Below are positions 1 to 17,923 of a stretch of DNA of 17,961 nt, one piece after another. The notes beneath the pieces are model-generated. The model saw nothing but the letters and a program-made list of their open reading frames with translations, searched no databases and had not been told where the DNA came from. Source of the DNA: Coriobacteriales bacterium (GTDB taxonomy: Bacteria; Actinomycetota; Coriobacteriia; Coriobacteriales; UBA8131). Made by a program: the position numbers and the translations under genes. Within the stretch, counting starts at the first letter, position 1; every line of letters begins with the position of its first letter. The DNA lies in assembly GCA_031263665.1 (NCBI GenBank), contig JAISFJ010000196.1, positions 1 to 17,961 on the forward strand, in the 5' to 3' direction.

Positions 1-828
1 CTGTCGTCGCCTGATGCGCATACGGCTCCCGATGCTGGAGCGTCCCGTTTGGCTCCCGATATTGACGCCGCTTCCACCACCACCACTGCCGCCGCACCAT
101 CCTCGGCTCCCGGTGCTGATGACGCTCTCGCCGCCGCATCGTCCTTGGCTTTCGGTGCCGCTTCTGCTGCCGATGAAGCTCCTGCCGTACCGCTCAAGCG
201 ACCGGCCTCGTTTCTTGCGACCTTCAAAAAACTCTGGTCGGGCGAGCACTTGCGTTCTACGGTGGTGCTCTGGGTGCTCTGGTTGGGTATCAACCTCGGC
301 TACTACGGTTTTGTGCTTTGGACCCCAAGCCTTTTGATGACACAGGGCTTTGACATGGTCAGAAGTTTTGAGTTTACGCTGCTCATGTGTGTGGCGCAGC
401 TTCCGGGCTACCTGTGTGCCGCCGTTCTCATCGAAAAGGCAGGGCGTAAGCCCGCGCTGACCGTTTTTCTTGTAGGAACCGCGCTGGCGGCTTGGCTGTT
501 TGGTCATGCTAGCAGTGAGCTTACCATCATTTTCAGCGGCTGCCTGCTGTATTTCTTCGCCCTGGGCGCCTGGGGCTGTGTCTACTCATATACTCCCGAG
601 CTGTATCCCACCAGCGTTCGCGGCGCGGGCACTGGCTGGGCGGCCGCCTGCGGTCGCGTTGGCGCTCTGGTCGCGCCGATGATACTGCCGGTGCTGTATT
701 CGATAGGAGGCACCGAGAACGGCTACACCGGCGTATTCATCATCTTAACGGGAGTGTTCCTCGTAGTCGCCATAGTCGTAGGAATCTTCGGCCGCGAAAC
801 CAAAGGCACCCCCCTTTACACCGAGTAA
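1..828 (+). CDS. MFS transporter, C-terminal half (5' end outside window)
   Basis: The frame is open from base 1 to a TAA stop at 826-828, so the gene starts upstream of the window. A TTG at 49 is unlikely to be the true start, because the frame continues to the left and an MFS protein needs six more N-terminal helices. What is visible is a low-complexity Ala/Ser/Pro/Asp linker of about 65 residues, then a basic stretch (KRPASFLATFKKLW), then about six hydrophobic segments. These end in the sequence YTPELYPTSVRG followed by a GRVGALVAP stretch and a final RETKG. This pattern is typical of the C-terminal half of metabolite/H+ symporters of the sugar-porter or NiaP/AAHS kind. The linker corresponds to the cytoplasmic loop between helices 6 and 7 and is unusually long. 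The substrate cannot be told from this half. The family call is solid; the specificity is unknown. Confidence 0.85.
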   Translation: MSSPDAHTAPDAGASRLAPDIDAASTTTTAAAPSSAPGADDALAAASSLAFGAASAADEAPAVPLKRPASFLATFKKLWSGEHLRSTVVLWVLWLGINLGYYGFVLWTPSLLMTQGFDMVRSFEFTLLMCVAQLPGYLCAAVLIEKAGRKPALTVFLVGTALAAWLFGHASSELTIIFSGCLLYFFALGAWGCVYSYTPELYPTSVRGAGTGWAAACGRVGALVAPMILPVLYSIGGTENGYTGVFIILTGVFLVVAIVVGIFGRETKGTPLYTE

Positions 829-879
829 TCACCTTCGTTCTGCTCACGCGAAGCACACGATATCCAAAAGGATGGGAAA

Positions 880-935
880 AATCGTGTGTCGCACGCAGTA
901 TCAACTCAAGTTGATACTGCGTGCGACACACGATT
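880..935. repeat. Perfect 27-bp-arm palindrome
   Basis: Arms 880-906 and 909-935 are exact reverse complements separated by only two bases (CA). Read on the minus strand the stem is followed by five T residues (877-881 complement), which would suit an intrinsic terminator in that direction, but no minus-strand gene ends here. On the plus strand, where the MFS gene ends 51 bp upstream, there is no T run. Two decamers, ATGCGACCGA and GTGCGACCGA, follow directly at 941-960. It could be a terminator, a REP-like palindrome or a protein-binding site. Confidence 0.85.
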
Positions 936-1015
936 GGCGAATGCGACCGAGTGCGACCGATGTCCACGATGAGGGTCGTGCTGTCTTTTGTGTATGGTCA
1001 TGGGCGTCTCCTTAC

Positions 1016-1060: not shown

Positions 1061-1981
1061 ATGAGAATGCGTTTGTTGACGAGAAGCGATTTTGATGGGC
1101 TTGCCTGCGCCGCTCTGCTCAAAGACCTGGGGGTTATCGACTCGTGGAAGTTTGTCCATCCCAAAGACTTGCAGGATGGAGTTGTGAGGGTCGAGCCCGA
1201 TGACGTGTTGGCCAACGTGCCCTATGTGCCCGGTGCCGCCCTGTGGTTTGACCACCATACGAGTGAGGCCGTGCGCTTAGGCGAAGATTTGGTCTTTGAG
1301 GGAGAGAGTCGGCCGGCCGACAGCGCGGCCCGCGTTATTTATGAATATTATGGAGGCATCGAGCGCCAACCGCATTTTGAGGAAATGGTGTGCGCGGTCG
1401 ATAAGGTGGACGCCGCAAAACTGACCGCCGATGAGGTGCTCGACCCCAAAGGCTGGGTGCTTCTCGGCTTCATCATGGACCCTCGTACCGGCCTGGGGCG
1501 TTTTCGCGACTTTCGCATCTCAAACTATCAGTTGATGGAAAAGCTCATCACCGAGGTTGCCAGCAAGAGCATCGATGAGGTTTTGGCCGACCCCGATGTC
1601 AAAGAGCGCGTCAAGCTCTATTTTGAACAGGATAAACTCTTTCGAGAGATGATTGCCGCCCACACCACAACCGACGGAAACGTCATAATCACCGATTTGA
1701 GAGACGTTGACCCCATCTACACGGGCAACCGCTTCCTCATCTACTCTTTGTATCCCGAGCAGAATCTCAATCTGTGGATTGTTGACGGACGCAACAAGCA
1801 GAACTGCCCCATTGCCGTCGGGCGCTCCATCATCAATCGCAGCAGCAAGACGGATGTCGGTACGCTGATGCTCAAATACGGTGGTGGCGGCCACCCCCAG
1901 GTAGGCACCTGTCAGGTCGCTTATGAGGACACCGACCAAGTAGTCTCCGAAATCGTTGCCCAGGCAAAGCACGACGGATAG
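1061..1981 (+). CDS. DHH-family phosphoesterase (exopolyphosphatase/nanoRNase-like)
   Basis: The product is 306 residues and probably a soluble cytoplasmic metal-dependent phosphoesterase. The metal-binding motifs are visible in order: RSDFDG at about 8-13, FDHH at 63-66, a conserved Asp region near 114-117 (VDKVD) and the DHHA1-type glycine motif GGGGHPQVG at 274-282. The family includes NrnA-type nanoRNases, pAp phosphatases and proteins annotated as exopolyphosphatase-like; the exact substrate cannot be read from sequence. A second ATG at 1067 lies at a better distance from the AAGGGG at 1053-1058 and gives MRLLTRSDFDG, so the true start may be two codons later. The gene converges with metK, and a long inverted-repeat element begins five bases after its stop. 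Family call firm, substrate open. Confidence 0.88.
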   Translation: MRMRLLTRSDFDGLACAALLKDLGVIDSWKFVHPKDLQDGVVRVEPDDVLANVPYVPGAALWFDHHTSEAVRLGEDLVFEGESRPADSAARVIYEYYGGIERQPHFEEMVCAVDKVDAAKLTADEVLDPKGWVLLGFIMDPRTGLGRFRDFRISNYQLMEKLITEVASKSIDEVLADPDVKERVKLYFEQDKLFREMIAAHTTTDGNVIITDLRDVDPIYTGNRFLIYSLYPEQNLNLWIVDGRNKQNCPIAVGRSIINRSSKTDVGTLMLKYGGGGHPQVGTCQVAYEDTDQVVSEIVAQAKHDG

Positions 1982-4950: not shown

Positions 4951-6348
4951 TCAGTAACTGAGCAGATTGAATCCCATGCAGCGCAGACTTATCGGGTTCA
5001 GGTATAAAATGAGGCGCTCGCCATCGGGCATGTCATAGATATAGAGCAGGTATTCCTCTGTCGCAAAGACGGTGGGTGTCGGCGCCATGTATTCGACTTC
5101 GGGGAGCAGTTCCGGTTCAGCCGCCTGTACGGGAAGCAAAATCGTGAAAGGATAGCCGTACCGGTATTCGTACGTCACCTCAAGTTGGCGGAAAGCTCCA
5201 AAGAGTTTTTGCTGGTCGATGGCCTTGGCCTCTCGCGAAAACACGTAGACAAATGACCAGAGGTAACGGTCCTCTTCTACCGGCAGGTGCTCGATGATTG
5301 GGGGGGTCGTGTTGGTTGTCGCCTCATCGGTAGGCTGTGTCTCCGTGTCTGTTGTGGTGTCGCTTTCCGCATCGGGAGAGGCCACATCGGGGGGTGCTTC
5401 GGGAGGAGTATTCGCCTCTGTCTCGCCCCCTTGCCCCTCAGGGCCGCCTTCCTGTACGTCTGTGCCCGTGCTCGTATCCGTATCCGTGTCCGCGTTTGCG
5501 CCCGTTGTGTCGCCTTCTCCATTCGACTGGCCTTCTTCGGTTGTCTGCGCGAGACTTACGCCTATCGGAGCGCTGATTCGCAGGGTATCCCATGATGACG
5601 AGACAAAAAGCAGCGAGATTATATTGCCATTGGGGTCAACGGCGCAGCGAAGGTCCGCCTGTCCGTCTGCGTCTATGTCCATGTCAGCGAGGATAAAGCA
5701 GCCGGGTTCGGCATCGTTTTCGGGTTCGAGGTAGCGAAACGCGTTGATAATCTGTGCGTGATAGCTGCCCTCATCGTAGTCCATCCGCAAACCATAATCG
5801 CGTAAAATCGCGACGAGAAACATCGGGATACCTCTGTCCTCAAGAAAATTGCGCTCTGTGGAAGAGAGCGTGCGCAACGCCTCTTCTTTATAGATGTTCC
5901 AGGGGTAGAGGACAACGGGTTCTTCAAAGACGTGTTCGGAGATGGCGTTTTCTGGGGGTGCGGCAAGCTGAATCGTCTCGCCGCGATAGAGGTCGAGATA
6001 AGGGTAGAGCAGCGTGGGCAACAGAAAGCCGCCCGCGATGATGATGCCGGTAATCAGCAGGGTTAACAGATTTGCCAAAAGGTCGGCCTGCCGCTTGCTG
6101 CGCTCCTGTTTGTTGTGTTCCGGCTTGCTGCGCTCCGACTTATCAAAAGAAGGTTGCGGGTTCTCGAGGGGCGGCGGGCCATCGGGCGGCGGGCCATCGG
6201 GCGGCGGGCCATCGGACGGCGGGCCATCGGACGGCGGCGGGTTCCCAAAAGAAGGCGGCGTGCCATCGGGCGGCGGCGAACTCCCAAAAGAAGGCGGGTT
6301 TTCCCCAAGCTCCTGGTTATGCCTCGCGTTTTGGTCAGCCATGCTCAT
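4951..6348 (-). CDS. Proline-rich membrane-anchored protein of unknown function
   Basis: The product is 465 residues and the family is not recognised. The N-terminal 65 residues are proline/glycine/aspartate repeats (PPPDG units) encoded by a 15-bp tandem DNA repeat, followed by a charged Lys/Glu/Arg segment. One transmembrane helix lies at about 90-113, and a large presumably extracytoplasmic part follows. In that part, DIDADGQAD (224-232) resembles a calcium-binding DxDxDG loop, and residues about 270-350 are a Thr/Asp/Glu-rich low-complexity stretch before a final folded region. The gene overlaps the kinase gene by 14 bp, so it belongs to the two-component operon. ATG 6342 is at a better distance from GGCGG than ATG 6348 and may be the true start. 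It may be a sensory partner or an output of the kinase; this is inference. Confidence 0.75.
   Translation of the reverse strand: MSMADQNARHNQELGENPPSFGSSPPPDGTPPSFGNPPPSDGPPSDGPPPDGPPPDGPPPLENPQPSFDKSERSKPEHNKQERSKRQADLLANLLTLLITGIIIAGGFLLPTLLYPYLDLYRGETIQLAAPPENAISEHVFEEPVVLYPWNIYKEEALRTLSSTERNFLEDRGIPMFLVAILRDYGLRMDYDEGSYHAQIINAFRYLEPENDAEPGCFILADMDIDADGQADLRCAVDPNGNIISLLFVSSSWDTLRISAPIGVSLAQTTEEGQSNGEGDTTGANADTDTDTSTGTDVQEGGPEGQGGETEANTPPEAPPDVASPDAESDTTTDTETQPTDEATTNTTPPIIEHLPVEEDRYLWSFVYVFSREAKAIDQQKLFGAFRQLEVTYEYRYGYPFTILLPVQAAEPELLPEVEYMAPTPTVFATEEYLLYIYDMPDGERLILYLNPISLRCMGFNLLSY
6172..6231. repeat. 15-bp tandem repeat, four copies
   Basis: The unit CGGCGGGCCATCGG[G/A] is repeated four times from 6172 to 6231 and encodes the PPDGP repeats in the N-terminal arm of the proline-rich protein. 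Being in multiples of three bases it keeps frame, so copy number could vary between strains without breaking the gene. Confidence 0.85.
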
Positions 6349-7771
6349 CCGCCTTTGCCAAAACGACGCTTACGCTGGTGCCCTGTTCGGGTGCGCTCTC
6401 AATATGCAAGCGCGAATCATGCGCCCGCGCGATTTCGGCGCAAAGCGCGAGCCCGAGTCCTGCCCCGCCATGCTTGCGCGTTCGCGCCTTGTCGAGCATG
6501 TAAAACGGCTCGGTGAGAAGGGGTATCTGGTCGGGAGCTATTCCCACACCCTCATCCGCAACGGTGAGCGTGACCGTGTTGTCGGCCGTGTTTGGCTTCA
6601 CTTTGAACCTGATGGTATTGTGGGGGCTGGAGGCCTTGATGCTGTTGTCAACGAGGTTAAAGATGAGGGATTTTATGAGCTCATCATCGGCGGTTATCCA
6701 CGTTTCTTCCTCGGGCAGTTCGCAGGCAAACTCGATTTGGTGGTTTTTGAGGATGGGTTGTAAGGTGGTGGCGAGCTCGGCCGCGAGTTCGTGTATTTCA
6801 ACGGGTTCGGCGGTAATCTGTATGTTGCCCATGGTGAGAAGCTCCATCAACTTGCCGGAAAGCCCCTGCAGGCGTTTGGTTTCGCTGACGATGACGCTTG
6901 CGTACTCGATGCGGTCATCGTCGGTGACCTCACGTTTGACACGCAAAATGTCCGCGAATCCGAGGATGGAGGTCAGCGGCGTTTTCATCTCATGAGCAAG
7001 GTTTCCGATGAATATCTGGCGGGATTCGGCGAGCTTTTCCAGCTCCGTGATGTTGTGTTCGATTGAGTCGGCCATGGTGTTGAGGTTGCGTGCGACTTCG
7101 GCGAGTTCGTCGTGCCCCTGTACGTTGGCGCGATTGTCAAGGTCTCCGCCCGCGATTTTGCGGGTGGTACCGCTCAGGTTCCTGAGAGGGAGCAGCAGGC
7201 CGCGTACCAGCAATAACAAAAGACCGGCAACAATGAGCGCGGAGATGATGCCGATGACACGGACCTGATTAAAGTCTTCTTTGAACAAATCGTAGGTCGA
7301 GCTGATGTCAAAAGAACTCACCAACCGGTAGGGCCGCTCGCTGAAGCTGGTTGTCGAGACGATGAGGAGGTAGGTCTTTTCTCCGCTCTCGACGATGGAT
7401 GAGGAATAGTCGGACTCCGAGAGCAGCGCGAGTTCCTCGTTCAATATCTGTCGGTCCACCGAATAAACGACCGCCTCGCCCTCAAAAAGCGACACGGCGA
7501 GCGTTGTGTCGTTGCGCTGCCGTTCTAAGACGCCTAAGGCAACGGAAAGCGCCTCGTCGTCGGAAAGCGAGACGGTACGCTCGATAAGCTGCGTGTATAT
7601 GATAGTGTTTTGGAGCTCGGCTATGAGGTAGTTGTGCCGGGCGAGTGCGTTTTGCTGCTCGCGTTCGATGGAAAGACGGTGGTTGCTGGCGAGCAAGACG
7701 AGCGAAGTCGCGTTGACCACTATGATGACCAGCGCAAGCGTGAGCAAAAATATCTTCTGCCAGAGTTTCAA
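6335..7771 (-). CDS. Sensor histidine kinase, HAMP type
   Basis: This 478-residue membrane kinase has a transmembrane helix at about 7-28, an extracytoplasmic sensor region of about 140 residues, a second helix at about 172-193 and a HAMP linker to about 245. The phospho-acceptor motif NLAHEMKTPLTS has His260. The ATPase part shows the N box (NLVDNSIKA, 372-380), G1 (DEGVG, 406-410), an F box (EPFYMLDK) and G2 (HGGAGLGLALC, 434-444). All catalytic features are intact. The start is TTG 7771, inside the regulator's TGA stop (TTGA overlap), with AGAGGG just upstream, so translation is probably coupled. The sensor domain matches no family I can name, so the stimulus is unknown. The partner is clearly the regulator encoded directly upstream. 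Confidence 0.95.
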   Translation of the reverse strand: MKLWQKIFLLTLALVIIVVNATSLVLLASNHRLSIEREQQNALARHNYLIAELQNTIIYTQLIERTVSLSDDEALSVALGVLERQRNDTTLAVSLFEGEAVVYSVDRQILNEELALLSESDYSSSIVESGEKTYLLIVSTTSFSERPYRLVSSFDISSTYDLFKEDFNQVRVIGIISALIVAGLLLLLVRGLLLPLRNLSGTTRKIAGGDLDNRANVQGHDELAEVARNLNTMADSIEHNITELEKLAESRQIFIGNLAHEMKTPLTSILGFADILRVKREVTDDDRIEYASVIVSETKRLQGLSGKLMELLTMGNIQITAEPVEIHELAAELATTLQPILKNHQIEFACELPEEETWITADDELIKSLIFNLVDNSIKASSPHNTIRFKVKPNTADNTVTLTVADEGVGIAPDQIPLLTEPFYMLDKARTRKHGGAGLGLALCAEIARAHDSRLHIESAPEQGTSVSVVLAKADEHG

Positions 7772-8436
7772 AGGGCCCTCTGGCTTTCCAGTCGATACCC
7801 GAGTCGCGGGATGGTGAGCAGGCAGTCATGGAGCTTGAGTTTTTTGCGGAGCTGCTGTATGTGGGTGTCGACCGTACGCGTTTCTCCGCTAAAGCTGTAT
7901 CCCCAAACGGCCGAAAGCAGGCGCTCGCGGGTGAGTGCGATGTCGATGTTTTTGATAAAGAATACGAGAAGGTCAAATTCCTTGGGGGTGAGCGTAACCG
8001 CTTCGCCGGCGAGGGTGACTTCGTGTTTGTTCACCTCAACGACGATGTTCTGATAGGCGAGCGTCACGTCCTCATGAAGGGTGCGCCTGAGTGCGACTTC
8101 GATACGCGCAAGCAGCTCAACCGCCTCAAAAGGCTTGACGATGTAGTCTTCCGCACCCATCCGCAGCCCCTTGACTTTGTTCGGCACATCGCCCATCGCG
8201 GTAAGAAAGATGACGGGCGTCGCATTGTCGCCCTTGGCCTCAAATACCTGAAAACCGTCGAGTTTGGGAAGCATGATGTCGAGAAGAACGAGGTCGTAGC
8301 TCCCGCTCAGTATCTCGGTTAAGGCGCTCGCGCCATCGCCGCAAACGTTGCTCGTGTAGCCTCCGATGGTCAACGTGGCTTCAATCATATGGGCGATGTT
8401 CTCGTCGTCCTCGACGATGAGGATGTGCGCTGACAT
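7768..8436 (-). CDS. OmpR/PhoB-family response regulator
   Basis: The product is 222 residues: a receiver domain (about 4-115) and a winged-helix DNA-binding domain (about 125-220). Receiver residues are all present: the acidic pair EDDE at 9-12, phospho-acceptor Asp53 (LLDIMLPKLDG), Thr79 and Lys101 (VKPFEAVELLARI). The C-terminal part carries LTPKEFDLLVFF, RERLLSAVWGY and RTVDTHIQQLRKKL, characteristic of OmpR-type winged helices. ATG 8436 is preceded by AAAGGGAG at a normal distance. It is the first gene of a three-gene operon with the sensor kinase and the proline-rich membrane protein and overlaps the kinase start by four bases. Its targets cannot be deduced from the window. Confidence 0.97.
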   Translation of the reverse strand: MSAHILIVEDDENIAHMIEATLTIGGYTSNVCGDGASALTEILSGSYDLVLLDIMLPKLDGFQVFEAKGDNATPVIFLTAMGDVPNKVKGLRMGAEDYIVKPFEAVELLARIEVALRRTLHEDVTLAYQNIVVEVNKHEVTLAGEAVTLTPKEFDLLVFFIKNIDIALTRERLLSAVWGYSFSGETRTVDTHIQQLRKKLKLHDCLLTIPRLGYRLESQRAL

Positions 8437-9400: not shown

Positions 9401-10477
9401 ATGATAGAGATACGCGAGCTTACAAAGGCATACGGCGACCTTGTGGTGTTTGAGGACATCAACCTCTCCATAACCGATGGTGAGGTCATTTCGGTGATTG
9501 GGCCTTCCGGCACGGGGAAGAGTACGCTTTTGCGCTGTATCAATCTGCTCGACCCGCCTACGTCTGGCGAGATATACATCGACGGCAAAAACATCACGGC
9601 GCCCCACGCGGATGTGCCGGCGCTCAGGCAGAAGATGGGCATGGTCTTTCAGAATTTTAATCTGTTTAACCACCTCATGATTATCGAAAACATGATGCTT
9701 GCCCCGGTTAAGCTCAAGGGCGTAAGCAGGCAGCAGGCATACGATAAGGGCATGGCACTTCTGGATATGGTTGGCGTTGCGGACAAGGCCCTGGAGTTCC
9801 CCTCCGAACTTTCGGGAGGACAGCAGCAGCGTGTGGCGATTGCGCGGACGCTGGCAATGGAGCCGGAGATAGTGCTTTTTGATGAGCCGACCAGCGCGCT
9901 CGACCCAACCCGTGTGAGCGAGGTACTGAGCGTCATCCGTCGCCTCGCCAAAGACGGCCTCACCATGATGGTAGTCACGCACGAGATGGAATTTGCCCGC
10001 GGCGTGTCTACGCGCGTACTATATATGGACGAGAAGGGCATCTACGAGGACGGTAGCCCCGAGCAGATATTCGAAAACCCCGCTCGAGAAAAGACGCGCG
10101 ACTTTATCCAGCGTGTTACGAGCTTTGAATACCACATCACCTCGCACAGCTTTGACCTTTACGAGATGAATGGCGGCATCGAGCAGTTTGTGATGAAAAA
10201 CTACCTTTCGCCGCAGACGGTCAATCAGATTCAGCTCATATGCGAAGAGATGCTCGTCAACCTGCTTTTGCCCGTGCTGCCTTCGGCCGATATCCTGTTC
10301 ACCTTAAAGAAAGAAGAACGCGGCGAGCGCCTTACGCTGCTGTTCGCGTTTTCATCAGAGGCGGCGGTTTCGATAGACTCAGGCGATAGTCTCGCGGTGG
10401 ATATAGTGAGCAACATCGCCTCCAAGGTATCAGAGGAATACACCGATGGCAAAAACCTGATAACGGTGGAGCTCTGA
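9401..10477 (+). CDS. Polar amino acid ABC transporter ATPase with C-terminal HATPase-like extension
   Basis: Residues 1-240 are a complete ATPase of the polar amino acid uptake (GlnQ/HisP) type: Walker A GPSGTGKST at 34-42, Q loop Gln84, signature LSGGQQQR at 137-144, Walker B IVLFDEP at 157-163 and the switch His194. Family members normally end near residue 245. Here about 115 more residues follow. They contain IQLICEEMLVNLL (277-289), resembling the N box of RsbW-like GHKL domains, and an end reading AVDIVSNIASKVSEEYTDGKNLITVEL in two parts, which resembles the last helix and strand of that fold. The glycine-rich ATP-lid motifs are missing, so the extension is probably a degenerate, non-catalytic HATPase module. 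The gene is the first of the cluster and is followed eight bases later by its permease partner. The extension assignment is inference from pattern; the ATPase is certain. Confidence 0.93.
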   Translation: MIEIRELTKAYGDLVVFEDINLSITDGEVISVIGPSGTGKSTLLRCINLLDPPTSGEIYIDGKNITAPHADVPALRQKMGMVFQNFNLFNHLMIIENMMLAPVKLKGVSRQQAYDKGMALLDMVGVADKALEFPSELSGGQQQRVAIARTLAMEPEIVLFDEPTSALDPTRVSEVLSVIRRLAKDGLTMMVVTHEMEFARGVSTRVLYMDEKGIYEDGSPEQIFENPAREKTRDFIQRVTSFEYHITSHSFDLYEMNGGIEQFVMKNYLSPQTVNQIQLICEEMLVNLLLPVLPSADILFTLKKEERGERLTLLFAFSSEAAVSIDSGDSLAVDIVSNIASKVSEEYTDGKNLITVEL

Positions 10478-10485
10478 TACGTCGG

Positions 10486-12273
10486 ATGAGAGGGAAAGTC
10501 TTAAGGCGCATCGTTTTCATCGCGACGCTTGTGGTGCTCGTGGCGCTTCTCGCGCTGGCACCTCCACTGGCAGGTTTCGCGGCGGAGAAAAGCGACCCCT
10601 CAACAAGCACGTCGACCGAAAGCGCCCCGGACACCGCCGCCACCTCAGCTCCCGCAACCGCCGCCGCCTCGGCCGCCGCCGCCACCTCAGCTTCCGCAAC
10701 CGCCACCGCCTCGGGCAAAACTCAGATAAGCTCTATCGAGGACATGGCGCACGCGCGCGTGGGCATGATAGAGGGAACGATATTCGACGCGATGGTCAAG
10801 GAGCGTTTTCCCGAGGCAGAGCGCGTCTATCTCAACACCTCAAGCGACATAATAGCGGCGTTGCAGAGCGGGAAAATCGACTGCTTTTTGCAAAACGAGG
10901 TCTCCGTAAAAGAAATGCAAAAAACCGTGCCGGGGCTGAGCTATCTGGAGGAACCGTTTTCAATCGAGCACTACGGCATGATTTTTCCCCAAGGCACAAC
11001 GGGGCTTCCCGAGGAATTTAACGAACAGATTGCCCAGCTTTGGGACGACGGCACCATCGAGGCGCTACGCGTGAAATGGATGGATGGCCCCGACGAGGGC
11101 AAGGTCATGGATGAGATAGTGCTCGACGGCACAAAGGGCCCGCTGCGCATGGCGACCGACGACGCCAAACTACCGTTCTCGTATCGGGATACGGATGGCT
11201 ACACGGGATACGACATCGAGCTCGTGAGCATAATTGCCAAACGGCTGGGCTACCAACTCGAAATCAGCGGCATGACCTTCGGCGGTATCATCCCTGCCAT
11301 ATCCTCGGGCAAATACGACTTCGCCTCCGCGGGAATCGCCTACACGGACGAGCGCGCCGAGGCGGTGCTGTTTTCTGACCCCATCTACTACGGCAACACG
11401 GTCTGCGCCCTTTACAGCGAGCCTACGGGAAGTTCGGGGCTGTGGCAGGGGCTTGTTACGGGATTTACCAGCACCTTTGTTACTGAGGACCGCTGGCGCC
11501 TGATAGTCGATGGGCTTGCGGTCACGCTCCAGATAACCGCGCTTTCGGTGCTGTTCGGCACGGCGCTGGGCTTTGCGCTCTACTTCATGGCAAGGTCGCG
11601 GTTGAGAATAGCGCGCGTTTTTGTGGCGGTGCTCTCCCGCGTCATGGATGGGCTTCCGGAGGTGGTCATCTTACTGGTATCCGCCTACATCATATTCCGG
11701 TCGCTTGCGATTCCCAGCGTTTGGGTTGTGACCATCGCGTTTTCGGTGCTGTTCGCCGTGGGCGTTGCGCAGACCCTCAAGGTAGGGGTTAATTCGGTTG
11801 AGGCTGGGCAGGTGGAGGCGGCACAGGCGCTCGGTTTTGAAGGCCGCTCCGTCTTTGCGCTCATCGTGTTTCCGCAGGCCGCAAGGAGCGTGCTGGCGGT
11901 TTACGTGGGCCAGGTGATAAAACTTCTCAAGGCCACGGCGATAGTCGGCTATATCGCGGTCGATGACCTCACGCGGGCAAGCGACATCATAAGAAGCAGG
12001 ACGTTTGACGCGTTTTTCCCCCTGCTCTCGACGGCTGCCGTGTATTTTATACTCTCCGCGTTGCTGGTGCTGCTGTTGAGGATTGTCCAAAAGCGGCTGG
12101 ACCCCCGGAGACGAAAACGCACCATCAAGGGCGTCGTGCTCAGCGTGCCCGGCGCATCCGGCGCTTTCGCCGCGCCCCTCGTTCCCAGCGCGCCCACGTC
12201 CGGAAAGCTCGCGCCCACCGCATCCGCCGCGCCCACCATCCCCACCGCGCGAGGACCTCATGACGAAGGATAA
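10486..12273 (+). CDS. Amino acid ABC transporter binding-protein/permease fusion
   Basis: The product is 595 residues. A signal-anchor helix (about 8-30) is followed by an Ala/Thr/Ser linker to residue 78. Residues 79-201 match the second lobe and last part of an SBP_bac_3 domain (ISSIEDMAHARVGMIEGT up to LRVKWMDG). Residues 218-310 match the first lobe (GPLRMATDDAKLPFSYRD, DGYTGYDIE, GIAYTDERAEAVLFSDPIYYG). The solute-binding halves thus appear in reversed order. From about 335 to 535 there is a BPD_transp_1 permease with the EAA loop GQVEAAQALG (441-450) and several membrane helices. A proline/alanine-rich tail follows, whose codons overlap the next gene. The likely function is uptake of a polar amino acid with the preceding ATPase. 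The start ATG 10486 has a weak ribosome-binding site, suggesting coupling to the ATPase gene. Confidence 0.92.
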   Translation: MRGKVLRRIVFIATLVVLVALLALAPPLAGFAAEKSDPSTSTSTESAPDTAATSAPATAAASAAAATSASATATASGKTQISSIEDMAHARVGMIEGTIFDAMVKERFPEAERVYLNTSSDIIAALQSGKIDCFLQNEVSVKEMQKTVPGLSYLEEPFSIEHYGMIFPQGTTGLPEEFNEQIAQLWDDGTIEALRVKWMDGPDEGKVMDEIVLDGTKGPLRMATDDAKLPFSYRDTDGYTGYDIELVSIIAKRLGYQLEISGMTFGGIIPAISSGKYDFASAGIAYTDERAEAVLFSDPIYYGNTVCALYSEPTGSSGLWQGLVTGFTSTFVTEDRWRLIVDGLAVTLQITALSVLFGTALGFALYFMARSRLRIARVFVAVLSRVMDGLPEVVILLVSAYIIFRSLAIPSVWVVTIAFSVLFAVGVAQTLKVGVNSVEAGQVEAAQALGFEGRSVFALIVFPQAARSVLAVYVGQVIKLLKATAIVGYIAVDDLTRASDIIRSRTFDAFFPLLSTAAVYFILSALLVLLLRIVQKRLDPRRRKRTIKGVVLSVPGASGAFAAPLVPSAPTSGKLAPTASAAPTIPTARGPHDEG

Positions 12274-14161
12274 CCACGTTGCGCAAAAAGTCGGAGGCGA
12301 CCTGTTTTTACGTGACGTTTTCGCGCGGTACCTGGCAGCGTCTGCCGTGGGCATCGTCGGAAGCTCAATAAGCATCGTCGGGAGCTCGGCAATCGTTGGA
12401 ATCTTTCTCGGGGCGGCCGCGCTTCCCGTGCTCTCACTCGCATTGCCCTTCTACTATCTGTTCGCGACCGTTGGCGCGATGATAGGGGTTGGGGGCGCGC
12501 AGGTCTGCGCCCGTCTCATTGGTTGGCAGCGTCACGAGGAATGTCAACGCGCGTTCAGCCTCGTATACGTGCTCACCATAGTCTTAGGCGTGCTGCTCAC
12601 TGTCGTGTTGCTGCCATCCATCGGCCCACTTCTTGCCCTGATGGGCGCTCCCTCCGATTTAATTGAGCCCACGCGAGGCTATCTGACCGCGCTTTGTCTG
12701 GGCGGCGTGTTCATCATCGGAATATACCCAGCCTTCAATATGCTCAGATTGGATGGACAGACGACAAAGGCGGCACTGCTGTTTGTGGGGATGGGCGTGC
12801 TTTCCGTGACGCTCGACCTGCTGTTTTTGGCGGGTTTTGGCTGGGGCATAGAATCTGTCGCGGTTGCGACCTGTTTGTCGTATGGAATCATCTCAATTCT
12901 GGGAGCGCTGATGCTGATGCGGCGCAGCCTGAATTTCCGCTTTGTGTCACCGTTTCGCGGCGGCCGGCAAAACGCGTTCAGGCTGACGCGCGCCATTGTG
13001 AGCACCGGCAGCCCCAACGCGCTTGAGGACATCTGTATCGTGATACGTACCGTTGTGATAAACAACGTGGCGGTTGCGGCCTTTGGCGCTGTGGCGCTCG
13101 GTGCCTACGTCATCGTCTACAGCATGGTGATGGTCGCGCTCGTGTTCGCCGCCGGCGTCTCGGGTGCCGCGATGGCGTTTCTGAGCGTATTTTTTGCGGA
13201 GAAGGATTCGCTCAACACCATCAAGGTGCTCAGGTTGAGCTTTCTGTGGGGCGCTCCCGCGATAGTTGCGCTCATGTTACTCCTCGAGCTGTTCGCGCCC
13301 GAGGTTGCCATGATGTTTGGCGCGCATACCACAGAGGAGCTCTCGGTGTTCTCCACGGCAATACGTGTGTTTGCTTTGGGTTTGCCGCTGCTGCTCTTTA
13401 ACTACGTGATGATAACGGTGTATCAGTCGCAGGACCGGATGGTCGCGAGCAACGCGATAGTGCTTCTCCGTGAACTCGCGGGCCCCCTTATCTTCATGGG
13501 AATTCTCACCGCGCCGCTCGGCCTGGTGGGGATATGGGCGGCCTTTCCCATCGCCGAGCTGGTGACCACCGTCATGGTGCTGCTTTACAGCTTTGCGTGC
13601 CGAAGAAAAAACCGGCACCTTTCCCCCGTGTTTTTGGCCGACAGGCACGTCGAAAAGGGCGGTGAGAGCGTTTCGCTTACCGTGTGCAACGACAAGGAAA
13701 GCATCGCGTCGGCGGTCGTTTCCGTAGAAGCGTTTTGCGAGCGCAAGGCCCTCAGCCCCCGCCTTACCATGGGCATACAACTGGCCTTGGAAGAAATGCT
13801 GGTCGCCATCGGAGAAAACAGTCTCGCGGGCATGAAAAGCCACACGATGAACGTCCGTATCCTGGTGCTGGGCGAAGAAGTCATCATGCGCATCCGCAAC
13901 GGGGGTGCGCGTTTTAACCCCATAGAGTACGCGGAGCGCCTGAGTAAGATTCCTCTCCAGACCAAACTCATCGACAGCTACGATGCCGGGGAGACGATTT
14001 CAGTTTTCAAACATGACGGGCACACGGCCTCAGACGCGCTGCCCGAACAAGACGTGCCGCTGGAACTGACGGGCATTATGATGATACTGAAGATGGCCGA
14101 GGTGGTTGACTATCGCTCGACCTTTGGGGTCAACAACCTCATGATGATAGTGCGCGATTGA
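12260..14161 (+). CDS. MATE-family transporter fused to degenerate RsbW-like HATPase domain
   Basis: The product is 633 residues. Residues about 20-448 form a polytopic membrane protein of about 12 helices with the internal two-fold arrangement of MATE exporters. After a basic linker (CRRKNRHLSP) comes a cytoplasmic domain, about 470-633, with the layout of an HATPase_c_2/RsbW domain: LALEEMLVAIGENS (508-521) at the N-box position, IRNGGARFNPIEY (545-557) at G1, and LTGIMMILKMAEVVDYRS (603-620) plus a final NNLMMIV strand. The N-box Asn, the Asp of G1 and the GLG of G2 are altered, so ATP binding is doubtful. ATG 12260 is chosen because GAGG lies five bases upstream and the longer upstream frame reads nonsense proline/arginine sequence. 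It overlaps the permease gene by 14 bp. Export substrate unknown. Confidence 0.88.
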   Translation: MTKDNHVAQKVGGDLFLRDVFARYLAASAVGIVGSSISIVGSSAIVGIFLGAAALPVLSLALPFYYLFATVGAMIGVGGAQVCARLIGWQRHEECQRAFSLVYVLTIVLGVLLTVVLLPSIGPLLALMGAPSDLIEPTRGYLTALCLGGVFIIGIYPAFNMLRLDGQTTKAALLFVGMGVLSVTLDLLFLAGFGWGIESVAVATCLSYGIISILGALMLMRRSLNFRFVSPFRGGRQNAFRLTRAIVSTGSPNALEDICIVIRTVVINNVAVAAFGAVALGAYVIVYSMVMVALVFAAGVSGAAMAFLSVFFAEKDSLNTIKVLRLSFLWGAPAIVALMLLLELFAPEVAMMFGAHTTEELSVFSTAIRVFALGLPLLLFNYVMITVYQSQDRMVASNAIVLLRELAGPLIFMGILTAPLGLVGIWAAFPIAELVTTVMVLLYSFACRRKNRHLSPVFLADRHVEKGGESVSLTVCNDKESIASAVVSVEAFCERKALSPRLTMGIQLALEEMLVAIGENSLAGMKSHTMNVRILVLGEEVIMRIRNGGARFNPIEYAERLSKIPLQTKLIDSYDAGETISVFKHDGHTASDALPEQDVPLELTGIMMILKMAEVVDYRSTFGVNNLMMIVRD

Positions 14162-14184
14162 CGGCGAAAGAATCGGTGGATACC

Positions 14185-15015
14185 ATGTCTGAAAAACGCT
14201 CGGGGAGCTTGGGGCTCAGAGAATTTGGGGAGTCGGTTGTGTTCTCACACGAGGGCGGCGCGTTTTTGCTCGATGTCGCTGGTCGAGATGACGTGGCCGA
14301 ACTCGCGCGGCTCAATCTCAGCGTGAAGCTCAACATGGCGCACTTTGAAAAGCTGCTGCTGAGCGATGACGCGACGGGCTTTGCTCACCGAGGCGGATTT
14401 TTTAAGGTGATGGACGCAGAAGCCCTCAAACGCTGCATAGATGAGAGCCACTCCATAATTTTTGTGCTGCGAGAATTGGGCGACAGAAAGGACGGCGAGG
14501 GGCTGAGTGGCGGGCGCATCGTCGCGTCATTTTGGGTGTCGCTGGACGACCCAGGCTTTGTTCCGCCTTCGTCGAGTTTTGCCCGTTATCTCGAGAAGCA
14601 TCCTGTGCTGACGGGCGCCTTAGCCCAAGGCAAGGTGTGCTATGGCCGAGAGCTCATCGTCGCGCGGGACGCCCCCAAGTTCATGAGCCCAAGCATGGCG
14701 ATTTTTTGCGGAGCTTTTCACACCATGCAAAAAGCGGGTTTTGGCTATGCGCTTTCGGAGGTCTACCGGCTTGCGGGATATTGTGTGGGCACAGATGTTT
14801 TCGGCGCAGACATCGCAAATGAGGCGGCGCTTCATATGGTCGCGGAGGCCAAGGGATTTCGCATAGCCAGAAACGAGCTTCGAACGCTTGACTTTGACGA
14901 AGGGCTGAGCGTTACCATCGAGCCCTTGGCGGTGCTGTTTGATTTTGCCGTTACGCTGCGGGGGCTCGGTAACTGGCTCGTGGAACAAGAGGTAGAGGTA
15001 CAAGAGGTACAATAG
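14185..15015 (+). CDS. GNAT-like protein, function unknown
   Basis: The product is 276 residues, soluble, with a pattern like GNAT acyltransferases: an N-terminal helix pair (DVAELARLNLSVKLNM), a strand SIIFVLREL followed by a second strand GGRIVASFWVSLDD, then a core strand CYGRELIVAR and a helix (SPSMAIFCGAFHTMQKAGFG) where family members bind acyl-CoA, and a C-terminal half repeating helix and strand elements. No clear pyrophosphate-loop signature (Q/RxxGxG/A) was found, so catalysis is uncertain. ATG 14185 is preceded by GGTGG. An alternative TTG at 14158 overlaps the MATE stop as TTGA and would add nine residues. It lies between the MATE-HATPase and phosphatase genes and is surely cotranscribed, so it may modify or sense something handled by the transporters. 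The fold call is tentative. Confidence 0.6.
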   Translation: MSEKRSGSLGLREFGESVVFSHEGGAFLLDVAGRDDVAELARLNLSVKLNMAHFEKLLLSDDATGFAHRGGFFKVMDAEALKRCIDESHSIIFVLRELGDRKDGEGLSGGRIVASFWVSLDDPGFVPPSSSFARYLEKHPVLTGALAQGKVCYGRELIVARDAPKFMSPSMAIFCGAFHTMQKAGFGYALSEVYRLAGYCVGTDVFGADIANEAALHMVAEAKGFRIARNELRTLDFDEGLSVTIEPLAVLFDFAVTLRGLGNWLVEQEVEVQEVQ

Positions 15016-15064
15016 TGGCAACGCGAGAAGGGTAAAGAACTTTCCTAACCGGAAAGCGAGAGTC

Positions 15065-17923
15065 ATGTCTGAAGCAGGAAAACCAGAGTCGTCCGGCCTG
15101 TTGGGCAGCTTGTTCGACCGCCTGTATGGGGCCCGGAAAGGCTCCATATCTAAAAAGCTGCTCAGGGCCTTCCTCATCGTATCGGCATGTGGGATGCTCG
15201 TTGTTATCCTTGTGGTCGAACTGATGTTTCAAAACATTCTCGGCGTGACGGAACAAAGCAACCTCAGCATAGGCGAGACGGCGGCGCAAAGCAGCGACGA
15301 AGCTCTTACGAACACGGTGCTTTCCGACACGGAGACGCTGGCGCAGGCGAAGGCGGGCATCATCAACGAGTCGCTTGAGAGCCTGGCCGGTGACCTCAAA
15401 ACGCTCGCGAGCTACATCGATGAGCTTTACGCGAACCCCGAGGATTATCCTGAGGTGCCGTTTGACCACCTGCGAAAGGTTCCCGCCAACACGCTCGCGC
15501 TCCAATGGGCGCTTTCACCTGGGATGGTTGCGAGTTCGCGCTTTGACGCCCAAGACCTTGAAGAGGCGGGGGTGTTGGATGAAACCTATTTGCTCGGCAA
15601 CATCGAGCACGTGGGCAAGGCGCTGATGTCTGATGAGCCAAACATCTCATCGCTGTATATCACAACGAGCAACGGCATCAACATAGGCTACGATTCCTTC
15701 GCGGAGCAGAAGAAATCCGTCGACACCATAGACCTCAGGGAGAGGGACTGGTATCTCGGGGCAAAAGAAAACGACGGGCTCTCTATCTCAGACACGTACC
15801 GGGACTCGTTTGACCGCGGGCTCAACATTACGATGTCGATGCCGGTCAAAGGACCTCATGGTGAGTTTGCCGGTGTGGCTGGCGCCGACATCAACATCTC
15901 CGACCTTGAAAATATCGTTACGGAGATAAACGCGGGCTCCAACGGATATGCCGTGCTTTTGAATGGCGCCAAGATAATCTCCGCACCCGGCCTCAATGAG
16001 GAAAACGAGGACGACCTGGAATTTTTCTTAGGTACTGAGGCGCAAAGCATGGTTGAGCGGATGAAGAACACCCCGTCCGATTCGGGAGAGACGAGGGTAG
16101 GCGGCTCGGCCGGCGGCGACAGTGTGGCGGCTGGTGGCGATGGAGCGGCCGACGGCAGTGGAGCGGCGACGGCCGACAACGCACAGACGGCCGACAACGC
16201 TCAGGAGTTTTTCGCGGTGTGGGGTCCTGTCGAGGCGACGGGATGGCAGCTCGTGATAATGATTCCTAAGGCCGACATAACCGCGCCCTCGGCTCATCTC
16301 CACTCCGACATATTGACCATGACCGATGAAGCTGCACTGTCCGCGAGCGGCCGCCTGACCTTCGCGAACATCATTCTCGTAATTATTGCCGCGCTGCTCG
16401 TGGTTATCTCCATGGTCACTTCGCGCTATATTTCCAGGAGGATAACTCATCCCATAACAAAGCTCAGCGAGGATGTGGAAGAGGTGGCGACCGGCGCTTT
16501 TGATTATCATTCCAACATCAACACGGGCGATGAGATAGAGGCTTTAAGCCACAGCTTTGAGCGCATGACGAGGCAACTGAAGGACTACATAGCCGAGCTG
16601 AGCCAGGCGACGGCAGAAAAGGAGCGCATCAGCACGGAGCTCAACGTGGCCGCGCACATTCAGGCCTCCATGCTGCCAAACACCTTCCCGGCCTTTCCCG
16701 ACAGCGATGAATTCGACATTTTCGCGACGATGGACACCGCAAAAGAGATAGGCGGCGACTTCTACGACTTCTTCTTCATAGACGGCTCGCAGGATGGCGA
16801 GCGACTCGCGGTGGTGATGGCGGACGTTTCTGACAAGGGTATTCCGGCGGCGCTGTTCATGGTCGTGGCAAGGACTCTCATAAAGAGCAATGCCCAGATG
16901 GGGCTTAGCCCAGCCGAGGTTTTTGGCGTTGTTAACGACCTGCTCGCCGAAAACAACGACGCCAACATGTTTGTCACGGCGTTCATGGGCTATCTCGACC
17001 TGAAAGACGGCGCGTTTTCCTATGTGAACGCGGGGCACACGCCAACGTTAGTGTCGCGTTTGGGCAAAAATTTTGAGAAGCTGGAGATGGACCCCGGCTT
17101 TGTGTTGGGCGCGCTTCCGGGCTTTACGTTTGAAGAAAAGCACACGACGCTCACCGTTGGTGACAGGTTGTTTCTCTACACCGACGGCGTCACCGAAGCA
17201 GCCTCTCCGACCCTGGAACTCTTCTCAGAACAGCGCCTGCTCCACGTACTCGGTGTCCCTCCTCGGGCTACCTCCATGTCCGAGCTGCTCGCGCGCGTCA
17301 AACAAGGCATAGACGCGTTTGCGGCAGGAGCCGAGCAGGCCGATGACATCACCATGCTCGCTTTGGAACTCAAACGGTTTGCGGGCAGCACGAACGTGGC
17401 AAGCAGCGCCGGGGCGGCAAGCAGCAACAAAGACGAATCAGGCGACGCCGCAAACACGATTGAAACGGCTGAAATCCGAGTTGACTCAGACGACAAAAAG
17501 CTCCCCGAGGTCCTCGCCTTTATCGAGACCGCGTTTGAGAGCTATGGCTTTTCGGACAGCCAGGTAAAAAAGGTTGCCGTTGTAGCGGAAGAAATCTTCG
17601 TCAACATCGCTCACTATGCGTATGCCGAAGAAGCCGGCCAATCAAAGGGCGATGTCACGATTGCGCTGTCCTTCGACTCTGATACACAAATCGCAAGCCT
17701 GAGCTTTAAGGACAGCGGCATCCCGTTCAACCCCCTTGAGCACCCCACCCCCGACCTGACCCTCGACGCCTTAGAGCGCGACATAGGCGGACTCGGCATA
17801 CACATGGTGCTCAACATGATGGATTCAGTAGAATACACCTACACCCCTCCCCACAACATCCTCACCCTGTCCCTCACCGCCCACCCCCACCAATCGGGAG
17901 CACTTAGCACAACCAAATTTTAG
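15065..17923 (+). CDS. Cache-HAMP-SpoIIE protein phosphatase with C-terminal RsbW-like HATPase
   Basis: The product is 952 residues. It has a membrane helix at about 36-56, an extracytoplasmic double-Cache-like sensor to about 400 (RERDWYLGA, SDTYRDSFDRGLNITMSMPV, GVAGADIN), a second helix at about 432-452, and HAMP to about 505. A SpoIIE-type PP2C phosphatase follows at 545-770, with GGDFYDFF (563-570), MADVSDKGIPAAL, YTDGVTEA and DDITML supplying the metal-binding aspartates. A flexible linker leads to an HATPase domain at about 805-937 with intact N box (EEIFVNIAHYAY), DSGIPFNP and GGLGIHMV. Phosphatases of this class dephosphorylate STAS-domain proteins, and RsbW-like kinases phosphorylate them, so both opposing activities may sit in one polypeptide under a ligand-sensing Cache domain. 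An Ala/Gly-rich insert at about 345-380 interrupts the Cache region. ATG 15065 has a weak ribosome-binding site. Confidence 0.93.
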   Translation: MSEAGKPESSGLLGSLFDRLYGARKGSISKKLLRAFLIVSACGMLVVILVVELMFQNILGVTEQSNLSIGETAAQSSDEALTNTVLSDTETLAQAKAGIINESLESLAGDLKTLASYIDELYANPEDYPEVPFDHLRKVPANTLALQWALSPGMVASSRFDAQDLEEAGVLDETYLLGNIEHVGKALMSDEPNISSLYITTSNGINIGYDSFAEQKKSVDTIDLRERDWYLGAKENDGLSISDTYRDSFDRGLNITMSMPVKGPHGEFAGVAGADINISDLENIVTEINAGSNGYAVLLNGAKIISAPGLNEENEDDLEFFLGTEAQSMVERMKNTPSDSGETRVGGSAGGDSVAAGGDGAADGSGAATADNAQTADNAQEFFAVWGPVEATGWQLVIMIPKADITAPSAHLHSDILTMTDEAALSASGRLTFANIILVIIAALLVVISMVTSRYISRRITHPITKLSEDVEEVATGAFDYHSNINTGDEIEALSHSFERMTRQLKDYIAELSQATAEKERISTELNVAAHIQASMLPNTFPAFPDSDEFDIFATMDTAKEIGGDFYDFFFIDGSQDGERLAVVMADVSDKGIPAALFMVVARTLIKSNAQMGLSPAEVFGVVNDLLAENNDANMFVTAFMGYLDLKDGAFSYVNAGHTPTLVSRLGKNFEKLEMDPGFVLGALPGFTFEEKHTTLTVGDRLFLYTDGVTEAASPTLELFSEQRLLHVLGVPPRATSMSELLARVKQGIDAFAAGAEQADDITMLALELKRFAGSTNVASSAGAASSNKDESGDAANTIETAEIRVDSDDKKLPEVLAFIETAFESYGFSDSQVKKVAVVAEEIFVNIAHYAYAEEAGQSKGDVTIALSFDSDTQIASLSFKDSGIPFNPLEHPTPDLTLDALERDIGGLGIHMVLNMMDSVEYTYTPPHNILTLSLTAHPHQSGALSTTKF
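16168..16203 (+). repeat. 18-bp tandem duplication within Cache insert
   Basis: GACGGCCGACAACGC plus three bases occurs twice in tandem (16168-16185, 16186-16203) and encodes the repeated TADNAQ of the low-complexity insert in the sensor region of the phosphatase. Confidence 0.75.

Follow-up and report, generated by a model that had tools for sequence, protein, structure and literature searches.

Predicted RsbW-like domains on an amino acid importer and a MATE exporter encoded beside a Cache-SpoIIE phosphatase in a Coriobacteriales bacterium

The window analysed here is a whole contig of 17,961 bases (JAISFJ010000196.1) from a Coriobacteriales genome of 1.12 Mb that is 62% complete. Between positions 9401 and 17923 it carries five genes on the plus strand, which encode an ABC ATPase, a binding-protein/permease fusion, a MATE exporter, a GNAT-like protein and a SpoIIE-type phosphatase with a Cache sensor. 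The initial annotation, made from the letters of the sequence, had described these as a packed same-strand cluster, and this gene set and order are borne out by the gene coordinates, the spacing and Pfam, and for the GNAT-like protein by its predicted fold. The ABC gene is separated by 8 nucleotides (nt) from the fusion gene, which overlaps the MATE gene by 14 nt. The MATE gene is followed after 23 nt by the GNAT-like gene if the latter starts at ATG 14185, or overlaps it by 4 nt if the alternative start TTG 14158 is used, and a gap of 49 nt precedes the SpoIIE gene; the contig ends 38 nt 3' of this last gene. The count was 2 in a promoter scan and 12 in a terminator scan, where shuffled sequences averaged 3.4 and 8.4, respectively. 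The ABC, MATE and SpoIIE proteins each end in a domain that appears to be related to the anti-sigma kinases RsbW and SpoIIAB, and the likely functions of these domains are the subject of this report.

Three C-terminal domains of the RsbW type

The SpoIIE gene (15065-17923, plus strand) encodes a protein with the Pfam architecture dCache_1-HAMP-SpoIIE-HATPase_c_2. The dCache_1 sensor lies in the N-terminal part (15065..16355; 1.6e-16), the SpoIIE (PP2C) domain (16595..17420; 5e-47) is a phosphatase domain of the kind that partner switching calls for, and the HATPase (17465..17923; HATPase_c_2, 4.5e-19) forms the C-terminus. The N-box Asn, the G1 Asp and the GGLG of this HATPase are present in all eight aligned copies, and judged by these residues it is likely an intact RsbW-type kinase, the single one among the three modules. 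With regard to the sensor, the PctA-type amino acid motif of dCache_1 comprises Y121, R126, W128, Y129, Y144 and D173 (PMC10104139). All six homologues retain R126, W128, Y129, Y144 and, one place later, the Asp, and all six have Ile at the position of Y121. As the motif residues are kept except for Y121, an amino-acid-like ligand is plausible, albeit not established.

In the MATE protein (ATG 12260 to 14161, plus strand) the exporter part (12260..13621; Pfam MatE 3e-16, NCBIfam MATE models under their cut-offs) is followed by a C-terminal domain (13622..14161) that matches HATPase_c_2 at 1.9e-4 in the window. This is under the Pfam cut-off, as are the matches in the relatives' loci L046 and L047, whereas the cut-off is passed in L042 (5e-7), L053 (1e-9) and L054 (2e-12). 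Profile comparison by hhalign aligned the domain with the SpoIIE HATPase at a probability of 98.5 (E 3e-15), and all eight unrelated control profiles stayed at 0.3 or less. The ATP-site residues are lost throughout the window's family (f1), where the six copies have A or V for the N-box Asn and N or S for the G1 Asp; among the five other copies of the 11 aligned, the Asp is kept in all five and the Asn in three, so that L053, L054 and L050 hold both. Judged by sequence, the MATE C-terminus is a degenerate domain of the RsbW/SpoIIAB type. As an aside, the MATE-HATPase reading frame of L050 (8912-10696) is split in two near a contig end.

The domain on the ABC protein is far less conspicuous. 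The gene (9401-10477, plus strand) begins with an ATPase domain of the polar amino acid type (9401..10117; Pfam ABC_tran 2e-36), in which the Walker A, signature and Walker B motifs were identified by eye and which matches the NCBIfam model GlnQ at 3e-91, under the equivalog cut-off. Its C-terminal extension (10121..10474) has no Pfam HATPase match in the window, and in an alignment of 24 copies, made up of three operon copies and 21 further ABC ATPases with the domain, only two matched HATPase_c_2 at E up to 1, the best at 0.087. With three homologues, hhalign gave probabilities of 91.8 against the SpoIIE domain and 28.8 against the MATE domain, and with all 24 these were 97.0 (E 8e-11) and 97.1 (E 6.5e-11), respectively. 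Seven of eight unrelated control profiles gave 0.2 or less, and the eighth, an ABC ATPase profile, gave 11.1 across 8 columns at the joint where both overlap; 30 column shuffles compared with the SpoIIE domain reached at most 1.9.

Structure prediction points the same way. AlphaFold2, run on a three-row alignment, modelled the whole protein at a mean predicted local distance difference test score (pLDDT) of 47.7 with a poor ABC part, and for residues 241-358 it gave ten-residue blocks at pLDDT 56-86 and the order strand-helix-helix-strand-strand-helix-strand-strand. The top E-values of a Foldseek search with this model belong to ABC ATPases with template modelling (TM) scores of 0.2 or less, and lower in the list stand UsfX (8ih8_D, target TM 0.70), RsbW (6m37_C, 0.71) and SpoIIAB (1tid_C, 0.65), all three from structures solved together with a STAS partner. 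Because of their size and root-mean-square deviation these matches are assigned to the C-terminus of the ABC protein, the aligned range not being printed. Sequence searches of solved structures added little: query A1 found RsbW and SpoIIAB at E 0.37-0.60 only, and query A7 gave two matches, both unrelated. Taken together, hhalign, its controls and Foldseek rule out that the missing Pfam match reflects an unrelated extension, and on sequence and model the ABC C-terminus is a degenerate domain of the RsbW/SpoIIAB type, which has probably been overlooked in annotation because it is nearly invisible to Pfam. The N-box Asn is kept in 8 of the 24 ABC copies, the window's among them, and a D-x-G aligned with the G1 box is found in none, five copies (the window's included) having one further on; an EE pair ahead of the N-box is nearly invariant (24/24 and 23/24).

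The initial annotation had assigned HATPase/RsbW-like modules to all three proteins and had proposed a check of the ABC and MATE extensions for this fold. All three do appear RsbW-like, by Pfam, by hhalign with its controls and, for the ABC protein, also by fold, but a kinase with its ATP-site motifs is found at the SpoIIE protein only. As these motifs are lost wholly or partly in the MATE and ABC copies and kept in the SpoIIE copies, we are likely dealing with two pseudokinases and one kinase, and the MATE and ABC C-termini look like docking pseudokinases. The same loss rules out a reading of the modules as three active kinases.

The STAS protein and the operon in relatives

A partner for these domains is missing from the window, and the initial annotation had supposed that a single one could serve all of them. 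The recovered genome indeed has a single STAS match, a protein of 99 amino acids encoded on contig C1 divergently from a second binding-protein/permease gene. Five of the 33 family genomes yielded STAS, in one copy each, and all five are among the six genomes that have the GNAT gene. A seventh genome, G021, carries a piece of the operon, a SpoIIE gene fragment at a contig end, and STAS was not found in the same-genus members without the operon (G010, G003, G008 and G018, 57-88% complete). The presence of STAS thus follows the operon across the family. In three relatives the gene adjoins the operon: in L041 and L043 the divergent STAS/permease pair lies upstream of the ABC gene, and in L042 STAS directly precedes the MATE gene. 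The motif LDYVSSAGLRVLL is common to all five family STAS proteins and represents a conserved serine motif, which makes it a candidate phospho-acceptor. A free-standing RsbW was not found in the recovered genome among HATPase_c_2 matches at E up to 0.001, which are three: the SpoIIE protein, the MATE protein and, by sequence inspection, a hybrid histidine kinase.

In genome G002 the STAS gene adjoins a radical SAM gene (best NCBIfam match 2e-23, under the cut-off) and a short open reading frame with a double-glycine-like leader (L112:1061-1552 (-), 3-1007 (-), 1384-1782 (+); contig C29). This neighbourhood looks like a modified-peptide locus, against which argues that the sole NCBIfam match of the short frame is a collagen-like adhesin (2e-4, under the cut-off).

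Six of the 33 family genomes, in 6 of 19 genera, have the GNAT gene, and the trio of MATE, GNAT-like and SpoIIE genes is likewise found in 6/33, including the window's genome and G006, where the MATE gene is cut by the contig end; as this trio recurs, the cluster is not a chance arrangement. The gene order in L041 and L043 is STAS, permease fusion, ABC-HATPase, permease fusion, MATE-HATPase, GNAT-like and SpoIIE-HATPase. L042 and L044 each have a pair of NHLP-type export ABC genes ahead of the MATE, GNAT-like and SpoIIE genes, with STAS in L042 only, and L045 starts inside the MATE gene. The first export ABC protein of L042 reaches 894 bits with TIGR03796, whose cut-off is 853, and the second, at 682 bits, falls just short of its cut-off of 709 (NHLP/NHLM models TIGR03796 and TIGR03797), and the pair of L044 is 76% and 73% identical to that of L042. 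In the window this place is taken by an amino acid importer, to which belongs, besides the ABC ATPase, the binding-protein/permease fusion (10486..12273, plus strand) with two SBP_bac_3 stretches (Pfam 4e-30) and a BPD_transp_1 permease (2e-13), its NCBIfam matches being under their cut-offs. Over the five informative loci, the importer is present in three and the NHLP-type peptide exporter takes its place in two. This swap rules out that the five genes form one fixed unit and leaves MATE, GNAT-like and SpoIIE as the constant core; of the gene-neighbourhood check that had been proposed for all five genes, only the coherence of these three held. In L041 a gene for a pyridoxal phosphate enzyme (13149-14282) resembling capreomycidine synthase and GntC, under the cut-offs, lies 13 nt after the SpoIIE gene, and it was not seen at this place in L042 and L043.

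The GNAT-like protein (14185..15015, plus strand) has no match in Pfam or NCBIfam. Its AlphaFold2 model reaches a pLDDT of 71.7 and a predicted TM score of 0.74, with the five models spanning 47 to 72, and Foldseek found the GNAT domain of Streptomyces lividans PAT at E 6.6e-7 and CBU0801 at a TM score of 0.84 by target length, so that the model predicts a GNAT fold. GNAT enzymes bind acyl-CoA with a loop of the form Q/R-x-x-G-x-G/A between strand 4 and helix 3. Such a loop is not evident by eye at the expected place in alignment A5 or in the model; a Q-x-x-G-x-G of the window's protein lies after the helix and is not kept across all five rows. Since the usual loop is not evident, catalysis is uncertain, and the protein may be an acyltransferase that acts on the exported compound. 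The idea of a FeeM-type N-acyl amino acid synthase was unsupported, as none was named among the best 50 of 993 fold matches, and a single-protein search of genome contigs with the GNAT-like protein was unproductive.

Related fusions outside the family

Eight MATE-HATPase loci outside the family and within the same order were inspected, and three of them contain STAS, SpoIIE and either a GH3 or a nonribosomal peptide synthetase (NRPS) enzyme. L053 and L054, from one genus of family f3, have the order SpoIIE-HATPase, STAS, GH3 and MATE-HATPase, and L046/L074 of family f2 has MATE-HATPase, NRPS, STAS and SpoIIE-HATPase. As these parallel clusters carry GH3 and NRPS enzymes, analogy suggests that the MATE protein may export a small amide or peptide that the enzyme encoded next to it makes or modifies. 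STAS and SpoIIE-HATPase pairs also stand beside large NRPS genes in four family f2 genomes (L058, L060, L070 and L075).

A profile of the ABC extension found 28 matches in 17 of 396 genomes of the class. A search of the phylum with this domain gave no more than weak matches outside the class, in 3 of 276 genomes beyond the window's own. We inspected 20 further ABC-HATPase stretches of 4 to 20 kb each, which hold 21 of the 26 matches beyond two operon copies; 19 lie outside the window's family and one, L091, inside. All 20 have a permease fusion that adjoins the ABC-HATPase gene or is in frame with it. L091 (9834-12415; G020:C60) is a second ABC-HATPase/permease pair, and one STAS gene was found in its genome. 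Domains resembling HATPase_c_2, all under the Pfam cut-off, are also found at the C-terminus of AMP-binding enzymes (L059, L062 and L063) and N-terminal to SDF symporters (L061 and L076), and among these stretches only L063 and L076 have SpoIIE genes. Genomes with the ABC domain have a median of 5 STAS genes (n=11) against 2 in others (n=163; p = 2e-4), in a comparison that leaves out STAS-free genomes, uses hand-compiled counts, draws its two lists from different samples and takes 5 of the 11 from one genus.

A possible partner switch on transport

Partner switching is known mainly from sigma-factor control. We think that the genes described here may represent it in a novel arrangement, with RsbW-like domains placed on transporters, and that they would form a ligand-driven partner switch at the membrane with transport as its output, a reading that is built on sequence and models and to which we assign a rough probability of 0.53. 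The Cache domain would sense a ligand outside the cell, probably an amino acid or some derivative of one, and would thereby control how active the SpoIIE phosphatase is. The HATPase at the end of this protein would phosphorylate the STAS protein and the phosphatase domain would take the phosphate off again, and unphosphorylated STAS would dock on the RsbW-like ends of the two transport proteins, ABC ATPase and MATE exporter, altering their activity. Import, export and the modification carried out by the GNAT-fold enzyme would then be switched without transcription, which suggests that transport itself, not gene activity alone, may be under the control of a small phospho-protein. The computational support consists of the domains, the contrast between the ATP sites, the conserved STAS serine motif and the co-occurrence of STAS and operon; phosphorylation, docking and its sign, the ligand and the substrates are what we infer. 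The initial annotation, which had one partner dock on importer, exporter and phosphatase, was right in outline and wrong in the kinase status, in treating the genes as a fixed unit and in overlooking the STAS gene, which is on another contig.

Several observations weigh against such a switch. In the window's genome and in G002 the STAS gene lies on a different contig from the operon, and STAS was not found in G006, which has the GNAT gene, or in the partial G021. That all five STAS genomes fall within the seven of 33 that carry the operon or a piece of it (p = 9e-5) speaks for the switch, but this p-value is uncorrected for ancestry or incompleteness in genomes that are related and mostly incomplete. 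The ABC protein model is good in its C-terminal part only, and the ABC copy of the window still has its N-box Asn. Neither STAS nor SpoIIE is found at five of the eight outside MATE-HATPase loci, namely L047 (beside an NRPS), L049 and L064, with 17-20 kb covered, and L050 and L057, which are near contig ends. Among the 20 further ABC-HATPase stretches none has STAS and two have SpoIIE (L107 and L109), and the related domains on ABC ATPases, SDF symporters and AMP-binding enzymes are in general mostly without linked STAS. As STAS is not linked, most ABC-HATPase proteins would need a partner in trans.

This scarcity of linked partners (neither gene in 18/20 ABC-HATPase stretches and 5/8 MATE-HATPase loci) also favours the strongest alternative, which we regard as unlikely. 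In this view the extensions of the ABC and MATE proteins would work on their own, in regulation or in dimerisation, by binding a metabolite or one another, and STAS would act on the SpoIIE protein alone or elsewhere. MetN, with its C-terminal substrate-sensing domain, is an analogue for such an extension, RsbW and SpoIIAB dimerise, and the whole or partial loss of the ATP-site motifs agrees with this view as well. It is disfavoured by the way in which STAS tracks the operon within the family and by the MATE-HATPase genes beside STAS and SpoIIE in two other families. Ordinary sigma-factor switching, in which STAS and the HATPase of the SpoIIE protein would act on a sigma factor and the domains on the transporters would be vestiges, could draw on a complete set of classical parts (kinase, phosphatase and STAS), yet we consider it improbable: no sigma-factor family was recognised among the nine Pfam-scanned window proteins, the other window genes and the genome not having been searched for sigma factors, no free-standing RsbW was found in the recovered genome, and alignments of 11 MATE and 24 ABC copies show the transporter domains retained. 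Hardly probable, too, is that the transporter-borne domains are still STAS kinases and that the activity of the transporters would write the signal instead of reading it. The residues left in L053, L054 and L050 and the N-box Asn of 8/24 ABC copies, the window's included, would fit this, whereas both residues are gone from all six family-f1 MATE copies and no ABC copy aligns a D-x-G with the G1 box, five having one further on. A mobile cassette whose parts merely travel together would explain the patchy occurrence (6/33 genomes, 6/19 genera) and the swapped ABC part, but is very improbable given that related domains are fused to such unrelated proteins as ABC and MATE and, under the Pfam cut-off, SDF and AMP-binding proteins.

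The proposed switch on transport shares with SpoIIE/SpoIIAA/SpoIIAB and with RsbP-RsbU/RsbV/RsbW the SpoIIE-type phosphatase, the HATPase kinase fold and a STAS protein with a serine motif. It differs from them in that kinase and phosphatase domains are joined in one membrane sensor, in the extra degenerate kinase folds on importer and exporter, and in that no sigma factor was recognised among the scanned window proteins. The SiaABCD system of Pseudomonas likewise has a membrane phosphatase, SiaA, a STAS protein and an output other than a sigma factor, but its output is a diguanylate cyclase and its kinase a separate protein; the SiaA model of NCBIfam matches at 2e-17, far under the cut-off. 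A precedent, by analogy, for an ABC transporter under the control of STAS is MlaFB of Escherichia coli, in which the STAS protein MlaB binds the nucleotide-binding domain MlaF, whose C-terminal tail is used in dimerisation, and post-translational regulation is proposed (PMC7367683). How active MlaB is regulated is called an open question there (PMC7367683). In contrast to MlaFB, the ATPase described here bears a whole RsbW-like domain and is accompanied by a sensor with kinase and phosphatase domains. In the literature records inspected, no account of this composition came up. The same fold ends an importer, an exporter and a sensor, and a single STAS protein follows the operon; if docking proves true, this would be a post-translational switch on transport and would offer a testable answer to the MlaFB question of how the hold of a STAS protein on an ABC transporter could be regulated. 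A tentative generalisation, to which we give somewhat less than even odds, is that RsbW-like pseudokinase domains serve in Coriobacteriia as a portable docking tag on ABC importers, MATE and SDF transporters and AMP-binding enzymes, through which STAS phospho-switches read from Cache-SpoIIE sensors could control uptake, biosynthesis and export directly and free of transcription.

The source bacterium is related to termite-gut species. Its Coriobacteriales relatives include the metagenome-assembled genomes Gx485_bin20, Gsp477_bin137, Roe453_bin54 and Gx485_bin93, and these sample codes, used elsewhere for other bins, stand for lower termites, Glyptotermes and Roisinitermes (PMC11707648). Elsewhere in the window, a gene on the minus strand (4951-6348) encodes a proline- and acid-rich protein of 465 amino acids without a Pfam match, and it adjoins a two-component pair at 6335-8436.

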